Origin: Silvibacterium bohemicum
GTDB taxonomy: Bacteria; Acidobacteriota; Terriglobia; Terriglobales; Acidobacteriaceae
Direction of reading: 5' to 3'
NCBI RefSeq assembly: GCF_001006305.1
Contig: NZ_LBHJ01000012.1
Coordinates: 160,231 to 224,230, forward strand
DNA length: 64,000 nt
A program made the position numbers and the translations under genes. Positions 29,895 to 50,114 of the stretch are shown in pieces (the stretch's first letter is position 1; every line of letters starts with the position of its first letter). The notes under the pieces were generated by a model. It was given only the letters and a program-made list of their open reading frames with translations. It ran no database searches and was not told where the DNA came from.

Positions 29895-30992
29895 TTAGCC
29901 CAGCACCCGAGCCGCATCCTTAGCAAAATAAGTCACGATAAACCCAGCACCTGCGCGCCGGATCGACAGCAGCGACTCCATCATCGCCCGCTGCGGCTCC
30001 AGCCAGCCCTTGGCAAAGGCCGCCTGCAGCATCGAGTACTCGCCCGACACCTGATACGCCCCGATCGGCGCATCGAAGCGCTCCCGCGCCGCGCGAATCA
30101 CATCCAGATACGGCATCGCCGGCTTCATCAGGATCATGTCCGCGCCCTCGCCCAGATCCTGATCGATCTCGCGCATCGCCTCGCGCAGATTCGCCCCATC
30201 CATCTGGTAGCTGCGTCGGTCGCCGAACTGCGGAGCCGAATCCGCCGCCTCGCGAAACGGCCCATAAAACGCCGATGCGAACTTCGCGGCATAAGACAGG
30301 ATCGGAATCTGCTCGTAGCCTTCCTCGTCCATCTCGTCGCGAATCGCCGCCACGCGCCCATCCATCATGTCGCTCGGAGCCACGATATCCGCACCCGCCG
30401 CAGCCAGCGACACGGCCGTCTTCGAGATCAGGCGCAGGCTCGAATCGTTTTCGATCTCATAGTCGGCATCCGAACCGCTATCCGATTTTCCCGAACCAGC
30501 GGCGGACTTTTTCGCCGCCGCCGACCCCTTCGTTGAAGAACTACTCGCCCCCGAACTGCTCGCCCCCGAACTACTCTTCGTCTTCTTCACGATCCCGCAA
30601 TGGCCATGCGAGGTGTATTCGCACAGGCAGACATCGGCGATGAGCAGCAGCTTCTTCGCCGCCGCCGCCTTCTTCAGCTCGCGCAGTCCGCTCTGCACGA
30701 TTCCATTTTCGTCGTAAGCGCCCGAGCCCTTTTCGTCCTTCGACTCCGGCAGCCCAAAGAGCAGCAGGCCGCCGAGACCAAGCGCCGCAGCCTCTTCAGC
30801 TTCCTTCACCGCTTCATCGATAGAGAGATTGAAGACGCCGGGCATCGAGCCGATCTCTTTGCGCACACCTTCACCGGGGCAAAGAAACAAGGGATAAATC
30901 AGCGCAGAGGGCTCAAGGCTCGTCTCACGCACCAGGCTGCGCATAGCCTCCGAGCGTCGCAGACGGCGCAAACGCGTAACAGGAAATTCCAT
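29895..30992 (-). CDS. hemB: Delta-aminolevulinic acid dehydratase with low-complexity insert
   Basis: 365 aa. Condenses two 5-aminolevulinates to porphobilinogen in haem synthesis. Schiff-base lysines K237 ([14 protein letters not shown]) and K290 ([12 protein letters not shown]). Zinc cysteines C122, C124 and C132 in [14 protein letters not shown]. Immediately after this motif, residues about 137-177 are a Ser/Ala/Gly/Lys stretch where other HemB proteins have a short loop before the EIENDSSL segment. The remaining sequence is standard. TAAAAT lies 6 nt before the ATG and no SD is seen. Confidence 0.93.
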
Positions 30993-31579: not shown

Positions 31580-31672
31580 GTGATCCCGAGCGAGCACCGC
31601 GAGCCGAGGGACCAGCAGTTTCCATCCCTCAAACAAAACCGGGTGCCCCACATCTGGATTTTCAGATGTGGG
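31580..31672. repeat. Family B repeat followed by family A palindrome
   Basis: Family B (31580-31622) and family A (31641-31672; here with tctggattttcaga in the loop, both arms changed together so that pairing is kept). Sits between two minus-strand genes. Confidence 0.7.
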
Positions 31673-32328: not shown

Positions 32329-32535
32329 CCCGCCGGCTAAGAAGCGGTTGGCTAAAAGCCGGTTAGCTAGAGTGCGGTTGGCTAAAAAGCGGTCAGCTAA
32401 AAACCGGGTGCCCCACATCTCGCTTCTGAGATGTGGGTAAACTCTTCTCTTCGGATACCACAACCCCCGCGACCCGCTTCTCAGCCATCCGCCCTTCAGC
32501 CAACCGCTTCCCCCGCGACCCGCTTTTCAGCCGAC
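32329..32535. repeat. Inverted arrays of a 15-17 bp repeat around a family A palindrome
   Basis: Left: several degenerate copies of gcggttggctaaaa (32329-32404). Centre: a family A palindrome (32406-32437). Right: copies of the reverse-oriented unit, cccgcttttcagcc (32469-32535). The right array runs straight into the mutS2 -10 box. The whole 280-bp gap upstream of mutS2 is made of these repeats. Confidence 0.65.
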
Positions 32536-32541
32536 TATCAT
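32536..32541 (+). promoter_or_regulatory. Putative -10 box (TATCAT) of mutS2, leaderless
   Basis: TATCAT ends 6 nt before ATG 32548; no SD is seen. The repeat cccgcttttcagcc abuts it upstream. Confidence 0.5.
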
Positions 32542-32547
32542 GTAAAC

Positions 32548-35145
32548 ATGCCCCTGGCGCATCCTATTCCGTCAATCGTCAGCGATTGTAGCCGTTCCGC
32601 GCTCGAGTGGGATCGTTTTCTCGCGCTGCTCTCCGCCTACGCCCAATCCGCCACCGGCCGCGACTGGCTGCTCGCCCTCGCGCCCTCGACCGACCGCGAT
32701 TGGATCGACCGCCAGCACGCCCTGGTCGCTGAAATGCGCCTGCTGCTCAACGAAGGAGTCCGGCCATCCGTCGGCTCCCTCTTCGATCCCTCGGACCTGC
32801 TGGCCAAGTCGCGCATCGAAGGCGCAGCTCTCGAAGCCGAAGAGATTCGCCGCGTAGTCAACCTCGCCGAAGACGTTTCGGCATGGGCCTCGATCATCGC
32901 CCAACCGCCACAATCGCTCGCCGATGCATTACCTGAGCTCTGCGCTCTGAGCTCTGAGCTCTGCTCGACCCCGCTCACGCCGCTCGTCGAGTCGCTGCGC
33001 GACCGCATCCTGCCCGACGGGAGCCTCACCGATGACGCCTCGCCCGAGCTGCGCCGCATCCGCCGCGAGATGGATCGTCAACAAAAAGCCATCGAAGACA
33101 GCCTGCGCGGAGCCTTGCGCCGCTTCGCCGAAGGCGGCTCGACGCAGGATGACCTCATCACCATCCGCGGCGAGCGCTTCGTCATCCCTGTCAAGGCCGA
33201 GTGGAAGCGCCGTGTGCAAGGCGTCGTTCATGGATCGAGCTCGTCCGGGCAAACGGTCTACGTCGAGCCCCTCGAAACCATCGAGCTCAACAACGACCTC
33301 GTCCGATTATTAGAGGACGAACAGGCCGAGATCCATCGCATCTTCGCGCAGATGACCCGCCAGATAGGCCAGTACGCGCCAACCATCCTGAAGGGCTCCG
33401 AAGTCCTCGCCGAAGTCGACACCCTGCACGCCCGCTCCCGCTTCGCGCAGGAATACAACTGCATCGCCCCAAAGTTCTCGCTAAGCGACACACCGTCCAC
33501 TGCATCGGGTGCCCCACATCTCGATTCTGAGATGTGGGATCAAACCCAGGTAGGAGCGGGCTTCAGCCCGCGGACCGCGCACACCGAGCAGAAAGGGGCT
33601 TTAGCCCCCGAGGCCAACCTAACCCTAAAACACGCCCGCCATCCTCTCCTCGAACATCGCCTCAAAGCCCAGGGAGGAGCCATCGTTCCGGTCAGCCTCG
33701 CGCTCACCACCGACGACCGCCAGCTCATCATCAGCGGTCCCAACACCGGAGGCAAAACCGTCGGCCTCAAGACCACCGGCCTGCTCGCCATCATGGCCCA
33801 GAGCGGCGTGCCCGTCTCCGTCGAAGAAGCCGTCTTCCCCATCTTCGACGCCTTCCTCGCCGACATTGGCGACGCGCAATCCATCGAGCAGAACCTGTCG
33901 ACTTTCTCCGCGCATATCGTGAACCTCAACCGCATCGCCGCCCGCGCAGATTCGGCATCGCTCGTTCTTCTGGATGAATTAGGCTCCGCCACCGACCCCG
34001 AAGAGGGCGCAGCCCTGGCCGTCGCCATCGCCGAGCACTTCCTGCACGCGCGCTGCTGGTCCATCATCTCCACGCACCACACCTCGCTCAAGGTCTATGC
34101 CGAGAACACCGAGGGCGTCATCAACGCCGCCGTGGGATTCAACGAGCAGACCCTCGCCCCCACCTACGAGCTACGCCAGGGCGTGCCGGGAGCCTCCGCC
34201 GGCATCAACATCGCCGCCCGCCTCGGCCTCGCACCGGAGATGGTCGCGTCCGCGCGCCGCCGCCTCAGCACGCAGACCCTCGACATCGGCCGCTTCCTCG
34301 ACAGCCTGCACCAGCAGCTCCGCGAAGTCACCGCCGAGCGCGCCCGCTACCAGATACTTGAAGGCGAATTAAAGAGGGAGAAGCAGAGACTCGAAGCTGA
34401 CGGCATGAAGGAGTGGCGCGCCAAGGTCAAGGAGATGGAGCACCAGCTCGCGTCTCTGCTGAAAGATTTTGAGTACCAGGCGCGCGAGACGGTCAAGGCC
34501 ATCGACGACAAGGCCGCCCAACAAAAGCTAAGTAAGGATGCTGAGCGCCGCATCGCCCGCCTGCGCCGCGAGTTTGCCGAGGGCTTCAACGCCTCGGTCG
34601 TCGCCACGCACACCGGAGCCGACAAGGGCGATGCCCACGCCCAGCCGCACATCGTGCGCCACATCTCCGCGGGGGACACCGTCAAGCTCAAGACGCTGGG
34701 CAAGACCGCCACCGTGCAGCGCCAGATCGACGACAAGAACTTCGAAGTCTCCGTCGGCATCATGAAGATGCGCGTAGCCCGCGACGAGATCGCCGAGGTC
34801 ATCCACTCGCCATCCAATACCAACCAGCGCCAGACGCCGCTCCAGGCCGTACGCCGGCGCAGCGGAGTCTCAGTATCCATGGCCGAACCCGACGCCAGCA
34901 TCAGTTGGGAGATCAACGTAATCGGCCGCACCGCCGACGAAGCTCAGGACGAAGTAGAGAAGTTCTTAGACAAAGCATTCCTGAACGGCCTGCCCAGAAT
35001 AAGAATCATCCACGGGACCGGAATGGGGATCTTAAGAAGAACCCTAAGAGAATGGCTAAAACACCACCCCCAGGTAGCCACAGTAACCGAGCCAGGACAG
35101 AACGAAGGCGGAGCTGGTGCTACGGTGGTGGAGTTTAAAGAGTAA
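32548..35145 (+). CDS. mutS2: Endonuclease/ATPase MutS2, with repeat-derived insert
   Basis: 865 aa from ATG 32548 (earlier in-frame codons lie in repeats). MutS core helices, Walker A GPNTGGKT (397-404), Walker B region LVLLDELGSATDPEEG, STHHTSLK, a long coiled coil, and a C-terminal Smr nuclease domain (EINVIGRTADEAQDEVEKF, IIHGTGMGILR). MutS2 acts on branched DNA or stalled ribosomes depending on species. Residues about 320-357 (GAPHLDSEMWDQ..FSPRTAHTEQKGALAPEAN) are encoded by two intergenic-type repeats inserted in frame, just before the conserved LKHARHPLLEH. Confidence 0.92.
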   Translation: MPLAHPIPSIVSDCSRSALEWDRFLALLSAYAQSATGRDWLLALAPSTDRDWIDRQHALVAEMRLLLNEGVRPSVGSLFDPSDLLAKSRIEGAALEAEEIRRVVNLAEDVSAWASIIAQPPQSLADALPELCALSSELCSTPLTPLVESLRDRILPDGSLTDDASPELRRIRREMDRQQKAIEDSLRGALRRFAEGGSTQDDLITIRGERFVIPVKAEWKRRVQGVVHGSSSSGQTVYVEPLETIELNNDLVRLLEDEQAEIHRIFAQMTRQIGQYAPTILKGSEVLAEVDTLHARSRFAQEYNCIAPKFSLSDTPSTASGAPHLDSEMWDQTQVGAGFSPRTAHTEQKGALAPEANLTLKHARHPLLEHRLKAQGGAIVPVSLALTTDDRQLIISGPNTGGKTVGLKTTGLLAIMAQSGVPVSVEEAVFPIFDAFLADIGDAQSIEQNLSTFSAHIVNLNRIAARADSASLVLLDELGSATDPEEGAALAVAIAEHFLHARCWSIISTHHTSLKVYAENTEGVINAAVGFNEQTLAPTYELRQGVPGASAGINIAARLGLAPEMVASARRRLSTQTLDIGRFLDSLHQQLREVTAERARYQILEGELKREKQRLEADGMKEWRAKVKEMEHQLASLLKDFEYQARETVKAIDDKAAQQKLSKDAERRIARLRREFAEGFNASVVATHTGADKGDAHAQPHIVRHISAGDTVKLKTLGKTATVQRQIDDKNFEVSVGIMKMRVARDEIAEVIHSPSNTNQRQTPLQAVRRRSGVSVSMAEPDASISWEINVIGRTADEAQDEVEKFLDKAFLNGLPRIRIIHGTGMGILRRTLREWLKHHPQVATVTEPGQNEGGAGATVVEFKE
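33507..33618. repeat. Family A palindrome plus REP-like element inside mutS2
   Basis: 33507-33538 is a full family A palindrome, identical in arms to the intergenic copies. 33550-33618 holds ggagcgggcttcagcccgcgg and aaaggggctttagcccccgagg, two REP-like hairpins. The insert has no stop in the mutS2 frame, and conserved protein sequence continues on both sides. Confidence 0.85.
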
Positions 35146-48270: not shown

Positions 48271-49509
48271 CTAAAGTTGCCTCTGCCCCTCCAACGCCCG
48301 CCGCACCGCCTCATCCGGAGTCGCACCCACCGCCGACAGATGTCCCATCTTCCGTCCCTTGCGCGGATTGTGCTTCTCGTACAGGTGCAGCCGCACGCCG
48401 GGCACGGCGAGCGCCGCATCGAAGCGCGGTTCGCGCGGCGAGCCGTCCTCGTTGAACCAGAGATCGCCCAGCAGGTTCGCAATTGCCGCTGGCTGCACTA
48501 CGGAGACATCGCCCAGCGGCAGGTCGCACACCGCGCGAATCGCCTGTTCGAACTGGCTGGTGACGCAGGCGCGCTCGCTCGCGTGATAGCTGTTGTGTGG
48601 GCGCGGCGCGAGCTCATTCACCAGCAGCTGGCTGGTTCCGTCTGCTCCCGGCTTCGTCACGAACATCTCTACCGCCAACACGCCCTCGAGCTCGAACTCC
48701 GCGGCGATGCGGCACGCAATCTCCTGCGCCTTCGCCTCCATCTCCGCAGGGATGGAAGAGGGAATCACGCTCCACACCAGAATCTGGTTTTCGTGATGGT
48801 TCATCGCCGAAGCAAAGCTCTTCGTCTCGCCATTGGGAGCCCGCGCCACCATCACCGAAATCTCTTTATCGAGATCGATAGCCGCCTCGGCCACGCAAGG
48901 CCGCTCACCCAGCAATCTCCATGCATGAACAGCTGCGGGTGCCCCACGTCTCGAATTTGAGACGTGGGATTCATCCGAGATAGAAGGATCATCGAACCCA
49001 ATCTTCACCTGGCTGCGGCCGTCATACCCGCCCCGCGCGCTCTTCACAAAGAGCTTTCCGCCCAGTGCCGGCACGGCCTCCGCGAGATCGCTTTCCGATT
49101 CAATCGCCCGCCATGGCCCTAGCGGAAAGCCACGCTCGGCCAGCCACGTCTTCTGCACGATGCGATCCTGGACAACACCCATCAACTCCGCAGAGGGACG
49201 CACCGGAGCATATTTTTTCGCCGCCTCCAGAGCCGCGAGAGATACCTGTTCGATCTCCAGCGTGACCACATCGCAGCCGCGCGCCAGGTCGGCCGCTGCT
49301 CGGGCATCGTTCCATCCGCCTTCGAAGCACGCGTCCACCACAAAGCGCGCGGGACACGAAGGGTCGGGGTCCATCACCTGGATGCGGTAGCCCAGTGAGC
49401 GCGCGGCCATGGCCATCATGCGCCCCAATTGGCCGCCACCCAGGATGCCGATGGTCGAGCCGGGCAGGATCGCTTTCGTGGCGCGTTTTGGTTTAGATTC
49501 TTCGCTCAC
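48271..49509 (-). CDS. purK: N5-carboxyaminoimidazole ribonucleotide synthase
   Basis: 412 aa ATP-grasp enzyme, converting AIR, ATP and bicarbonate to N5-[16 protein letters not shown] (21-32), [10 protein letters not shown] (161-170), [16 protein letters not shown] and the closing [19 protein letters not shown]. Residues about 177-192 ([14 protein letters not shown]) come from an inserted family A palindrome between the GYDGR strand and [14 protein letters not shown]. The start overlaps the purE stop by 4 bp (ATGA). Confidence 0.93.
48937..48968. repeat. Family A palindrome inside purK
   Basis: gggtgccccacgtctcg then aatttgagacgtggg. The a-to-g and t-to-c changes in the two arms compensate each other, so the hairpin is kept. 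Read in frame by purK in the opposite orientation to the mutS2 copy. Confidence 0.85.
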
Positions 49510-50114
49510 GACGGCAGCTCCTGCGCCAGCACTTCATCGCGCCGGGATTCGCGCCACTCGCGCAGCTTCTCGCGCAGAGCCTTGTTCGTCGTGGCCAATA
49601 TCTGCGCCGCCAGCAGCGCCGCATTCGCCGCGCCCGGCCTGCCGATGGCCAGCGTGCCCACGGGAATGCCCTTGGGCATCTGCACAATCGATAACAGGGA
49701 ATCGATGCCGTTCAGCATGGTTGCCGGAACCGGCACGCCCAGCACCGGAACCAGCGTCTTCGCCGCCAGCATTCCCGGCAGATGCGCCGCGCCGCCGGCT
49801 GCCGCAATGATCACGCGCAGCCCGCGTCCCTCCGCCTCCTCCGCATATTGAAAGAGCCAGTCGGGAGTGCGATGCGCCGAGACCACGCGCGCTTCGTAAG
49901 GTATGTCGAAGGCTTTGAGAACTTCGATGGCTGGCGCGAGGTATTCGTAATCGCTCTTCGAGCCCATCACCACGCCCACGAGGACTGGCCGTGCAGGCGG
50001 AAGCGCCTCCGGCACCGGGTTTGCAGCCGGGGTTTCCTCTGTAACTTCAGTGACCGCCGATCTCGCAGGTTTGCTTGATTTCTTCACTTCGTATGGCTCC
50101 GTTGAACGTGGCAC
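49506..50114 (-). CDS. purE: N5-carboxyaminoimidazole ribonucleotide mutase
   Basis: 202 aa with GTG start. Moves the carboxyl of N5-CAIR to carbon to give [50 protein letters not shown] and the ending with [10 protein letters not shown] are all standard. An N-terminal extension of about 40 residues rich in Lys/Pro/Glu is not part of the known fold; an internal start nearer [12 protein letters not shown] is possible. Followed by purK with a 4-bp overlap. Confidence 0.92.

Follow-up and report, generated by a model that had tools for sequence, protein, structure and literature searches.

The nearest described counterparts of the insert considered here are the GTAG and CGTC REPs, short palindromes that are mostly intergenic, some of them lying inside open reading frames (ORFs) and coding for amino acids there. 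In the sections of a 2013 study available to us (PMC3733652), such ORF-internal REPs are documented in many bacteria, Opitutus, Thauera and Xanthomonas included; many of the intragenic copies occupy DNA replication and repair genes, and loops and linkers are named as places that may tolerate them. Two Xanthomonas species carry different REPs at approximately the same site of recB. The same sections assign the acidobacterial Y1 transposases to a group with terminal repeats, the TIRYT or TIRtrons, in which the transposase gene lies within inverted terminal repeats; in one case, Koribacter ORF1552, these repeats belong to a repeat family. In the TnpAREP/REP systems, palindromes are processed by HUH transposases (available text of PMC8266576). 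In the accessible part of a review (PMC10969869), in-frame fusions through intragenic MITEs are described as not unusual, and the palindromic elements of Rickettsia, likewise inserted in frame in genes, are given as about 150 bp long with a conserved peptide. The initial annotation of the locus described below had considered in-frame palindromes well known only in Rickettsia, a claim that was wrong in light of the ORF-internal REPs and in-frame MITEs of these sources; the rest of its interpretation fared better.

The window, a stretch of 64,000 nucleotides of Silvibacterium bohemicum DNA, contains an intact ORF (32431–35145) whose product is MutS2, scoring 726 bits with NCBIfam TIGR01069, whose cut-off is 400. 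Read from the ATG at 32548, the gene (mutS2, 32548–35145, plus strand) encodes 865 residues with MutS ATPase, MSSS and Smr domains. At 33507–33618 lies the composite that had been annotated as intergenic-type repeats, a palindrome and two REP-like hairpins, translated as about 37 residues without a stop. Its composition and open frame were both borne out, and the copy numbers of the repeats exceed those of controls. The insert, in frame on the plus strand throughout, begins with a 32-bp palindrome at 33507–33538 that combines the tag GGGTGCC (33507–33513) with CCCACATCTC-GATTCT-GAGATGTGGG (stem-loop 33513–33538) and encodes GAPHLDSEMWD. A REP doublet follows, its first hairpin at 33549–33576 (core GGGCTTCAGCCC at 33558–33569) encoding VGAGFSPRT and its second at 33592–33613 (core GGGCTTTAGCCC at 33596–33607) encoding KGALAPE. 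The RNA of 33501–33625 has a predicted folding energy of −59.9 kcal/mol with a z of −4.37. Two other copies in the genome match the leading 34 bases of the insert exactly, and the full 112-base composite occurs once. A further copy of the tagged palindrome (32406–32437, plus strand) sits upstream of the likely mutS2 start. Rfam gave no match in the window, and a search for related loci gave two distant public ones.

In the protein, the added residues fall at approximately 320–357, counting from the ATG at 32548, with LKHARHPLLEH and the Walker A motif on their C-terminal side; the insert precedes the ATPase domain, as had been proposed. Alignment to the MutS2 structure 8qpp, which we take to be that of the Bacillus subtilis protein, ends at query residue 308 and resumes at 358, with seven residues in the structure against 49 here. 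Residues 309–357 therefore lack a structural counterpart, and judged from the alignment the gap fits a putative variable linker preceding the ATPase domain. The gene has a second small low-complexity place at 32935–32968, where short direct repeats encode ELCALSSELCS, and a nearby HemB-like ORF (29895–30992, minus strand; assigned by eye) has some 40 residues of low complexity, rich in Ser, Ala and Lys, in mid-protein.

The tagged palindrome is one member of a large repeat family. Its exact sequence occurs 50 times in the 6.46-Mb genome and never as the reversed control, a related palindrome pattern is found at 104 forward places when up to three mismatches are allowed, and the wider tag pattern CCCA-N(12–40)-TGGGGCACCC yields 84 matches in this genome and 296 in the sister genome G001 against 0 in controls, nested matches counting some places twice. 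A short palindrome in such numbers is what characterizes a REP. Unlike the described GTAG and CGTC REPs, the tag here is GGGTGCC, and GTAG is absent from the palindrome end. The elements are 32–39 bp long and use both orientations and several reading frames. Their stems occur as CATCTC, CGTCTC, TGTCTC, GGTCTC, CATCCC, CATCTG and CCTTCGCG, each with the opposite arm altered to match; since the arms covary, it is the hairpin, not its letters, that is conserved. Another variant in the window, CCCACATCTG..CAGATGTGGG at 31647–31672, has both arms altered jointly and recurs at two places on contig C16. The exact palindrome is present in 48 copies in G001 and in one to nine copies in five further members of the genus, is absent from G003 and G006, and outside the genus appears in one of the 52 genomes searched (G024). 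The REP doublet represents a separate class, GGGCTTYAGCCC, with 40 genomic copies against two in controls. Such hairpins stand in pairs 34–37 bases apart at four other places, the mutS2 pair being spaced at 38. Judged by eye, the mutS2 copy and a few of 35 copies have GGTAGG ahead of the hairpin, the others differing.

Both families are found beside Y1 transposase genes. Two matches to Y1_Tnp (PF01797) occur in the genome. One, at C4:849185, is a RAYT-type gene of 156 residues with an HFH motif, flanked by inverted tagged hairpins whose inverted repeats span 18 nt at 100% and 18 nt at 94% identity. Similar flanking pairs, with some tag letters changed, accompany two RAYT genes in G002, one in G003 and one of the two in G006, the second G006 gene (L350) having one clear hairpin flank and no visible pair. 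Inverted copies flanking a Y1 transposase gene, another feature by which REPs are recognized, are present in these cases except L350. The hairpins around C4:849185 have the stem CCTTTCGCG.., unlike the CATCTC palindrome, so that the link of the CATCTC subclass to RAYT genes rests on the shared tag and ends. The other Y1_Tnp match (C12:134161–134346) covers part of the profile and appears to be broken across two frames; a GGGCTTCAGCCC hairpin lies 56 bases from its end. RAYT genes of G001, G002 and G008 stand between hairpins of the GGGCTTYAGCCC class, and those of G000 and G004 have such a hairpin on one side. Given these flanks, both insert families resemble the REP-type hairpins that belong to RAYT/TIRYT systems. 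They differ from some TIRYT terminal repeats reported in the accessible text of PMC3733652 in that the GGGGWSAS motif is not matched, GGGGCACC having a C at position 5, and from TnpAREP/REP as presented in the available text of PMC8266576 in their tag and in being known here from sequence alone.

Within the genus, the insert is absent from mutS2 of G001, G002 and G008, as the initial annotation had expected of a recent insertion; the first loops of these genes measure 17, 14 and 17 residues, and the one here has 57. In G004, nine bases separate the matching pieces of mutS2, leaving no room for an insert, and the first loop of G005 has 24 residues and no strong hairpin. That of G007, at 34 residues, holds a tagged hairpin with a different stem, and G006 combines a 16-residue first loop with a second loop, located after HPLLEKRLR, that contains two tagged hairpins. 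The search of G003 turned up no mutS2.

Across a broader sample, the linker loop of mutS2 has repeatedly received hairpins of several unrelated classes. The sample comprised 110 mutS2 loci, 30 from one search and 80 of about 155 places from a wider search in which 220 of 250 genomes matched; 108 could be parsed (L172 and L196 being left out). A first-loop hairpin score of at least 8, a threshold chosen after a first look at the loop list, was reached at 20 of the 108 loci, or 19 without L042, whose hairpin in a short loop looks like chance. Dinucleotide shuffles averaged 2.1 (at most 7 over 20 rounds), and same-length windows elsewhere in the gene 2.05 (at most 4). Strong hairpins were concentrated in loops longer than 25 residues (17 of 32, the other 15 lacking one) as against shorter loops (3 of 76), and the second mutS2 loop reached the threshold in 3 of 108. 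The relatives do not all carry a similar non-repeat loop at this site, the finding that would have spoken against a repeat insertion: many loops are short, and palindromes occupy those 17 long ones. Tagged hairpins occur in the first loops of G000, G007, G067, G065, G135 and G163, and more weakly, with a score of 6, in G216; one of them, CCCACATCTTTTCAAGATGTGGGGCACCC, from another genus, is close in sequence to the window palindrome. The GGGCTTCAGCCC class is present in the mutS2 loops of G017, G115 and G087 and a GACGGGC.. class in those of G032, G035 and G136, with further classes elsewhere. The hairpins of G035 and G136 are themselves genomic repeats, with 90 and 32 matches at up to two mismatches against one and none in controls. 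In L158 (mutS2 of G067), the first loop holds two tag-like hairpins and the second perhaps a degenerate one, judging from the peptide.

The distribution of such hairpins shows no tie to ancestry. In a quick mutS2 tree with many weak forks, built without the loop, the tagged loci of G007, G067, G135/G163 and G065 neighbor loci lacking a strong hairpin. Hairpin presence on the gene tree requires 18 changes against a shuffled-label mean of 17.9 (19 labelled loci, 12 of 53 genera) and so does not follow descent. These observations fit repeated gain and loss.

Two other genes of the genome contain the tagged palindrome in frame. At 48937–48968 (minus strand), a copy with the stem variant CACGTCTC/GAGACGTG lies in the purK ORF (48274–49533, minus strand), within a 15-residue insert; this insert is absent from purK of G001, G002, G005, G006, G007 and G008. 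The murI copy (L155), altered at one tag base, occupies a variable loop about five residues longer than that of G001. Both are read in frames other than that of the mutS2 copy, and no conserved peptide emerges, the three copies encoding differing sequences, IPHLKVEMWST among them. Hairpin scores of at least 8 were found in 2 of 12 parsed murI loops (23 loci), one of them from the window's genome; purK, with 8 loops parsed from 16 loci and the window's copy not among them, gave none. The variable murI loop that holds this palindrome contains in G016 (L273) a strong hairpin of another class. From these small samples, the mutS2 loop may not be exceptional, and variable loops may generally accept such inserts.

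Few of the elements examined were recognized in genes. Among 80 tag or palindrome elements of the genome, three were traced to conserved genes, namely mutS2, purK and murI, a count made short of a full gene annotation, with candidates judged by eye and these three by alignment. The window together with 800 kb chosen regardless of repeats holds 30 elements, and the two known in genes are the window's own. Across 400 kb of G001 there were 40 elements, one of them open in a shared frame, with low coding scores. A looser coding test flagged 8 of the 80 tag elements and 2 of 35 REP hairpins; the flagged tag elements were the mutS2, purK and murI copies, L088, L311 and L060, and the low-scoring L131 and L304, with L343 flagged in G001. 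A strict threshold passed 0 of 115 elements, mutS2 and purK included, and its zeros are therefore uninformative. Four further candidates open in frame, at genes for TatD (L088), an ABC permease (L117, the same as L311), an NfeD-like protein (L060) and a VWA-type protein (L083), were rejected as in-gene hairpins, each probably lying before the gene start as placed by eye.

In all likelihood, RAYT-associated hairpins of two families landed in a tolerant linker of MutS2 and were kept in frame as neutral additions. Two small, REP-like families would have arrived, once or more, between the N-terminal core and the ATPase domain, probably mobilized by a Y1 (HUH) transposase of the RAYT/TIRYT kind, and would have been retained because the frame stayed open. 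Insertions within genes would mostly be lost and variable loops would be where survival occurs, with the consequence that different species would keep different hairpins there. Because unrelated hairpins share the mutS2 site, it is taken to reflect tolerance rather than targeting. We infer that the insert is translated and that a RAYT enzyme mobilized it; the encoded residues would most likely serve as a neutral, flexible linker. Could the family instead be a Rickettsia-like class, spreading as a readable element selected to encode a peptide? The in-frame copies in mutS2, purK and murI would agree with this, as would a possible bias, seen by eye among copies that are not independent, of 8 of 11 tag-reversed hairpins in coding loops toward one frame reading GAP or variants (L029, L030, L158, L168, L173, L174, purK and murI). 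Yet so few of the elements examined were traced to conserved genes, and so few of those in G001 are open in a shared frame, that this is highly improbable; moreover, the elements, at 32–39 bp as against the roughly 150 bp and conserved peptide of the Rickettsia elements in the accessible text of PMC10969869, appear in both orientations and several frames without a fixed peptide. Given the varied frames and the few copies recognized in genes, such a coding module is rejected as the main reading.

Selection could also act on the hairpin in mutS2 itself, either by slowing ribosomes on the mRNA of a rescue factor or by tuning a hinge through the insert. In its favor, one loop has acquired unrelated palindromes again and again, the fold is very stable, and B. 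subtilis MutS2 splits stalled ribosomes (available text of PMC10897456). This reading is very unlikely, however: 88 of the 108 loci fall below the hairpin threshold, presence does not track descent, and murI, which is no rescue factor, carries comparable hairpins, albeit in a small sample. An extension of it, in which the linker would be a selected landing place for RAYT hairpins and hairpin-slowed ribosomes would let MutS2 control itself, any family serving, is a long shot of the same order; if true, such autoregulation would explain why unrelated palindromes arrive repeatedly at one loop. An assembly artefact is the least plausible of all. Short identical repeats can in principle mislead short-read assembly, but the genome has the 112-bp composite a single time, it joins conserved halves in frame, and comparable inserts are present in other genomes.

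Tolerated insertion of RAYT-associated hairpins is of a kind already known; the novelty lies in the tag family, in its copies inside purK and murI, and in the mutS2 linker having been used repeatedly. The main text of PMC3733652 makes no mention of mutS, and neither a family-wide insertion site for many classes nor TIR insertion in genes was found described in the sections available; among the titles and abstract openings covered by a literature search, none dealt with REPs within mutS2 or with hairpins located in acidobacterial genes. Across a bacterial family, the same protein loop has captured hairpin repeats time and again, and the series of mutS2 loops offers natural material for studying the uptake of foreign sequence by proteins. 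With mutS2, purK and murI, the list of genes with REP-like inserts grows, repair genes being unexplainedly common on it, and a family of tagged hairpins linked to RAYT genes is now named. Hairpins of both families also cluster at L060 (811–2928), upstream of the NfeD-like membrane protein and before its likely signal peptide.
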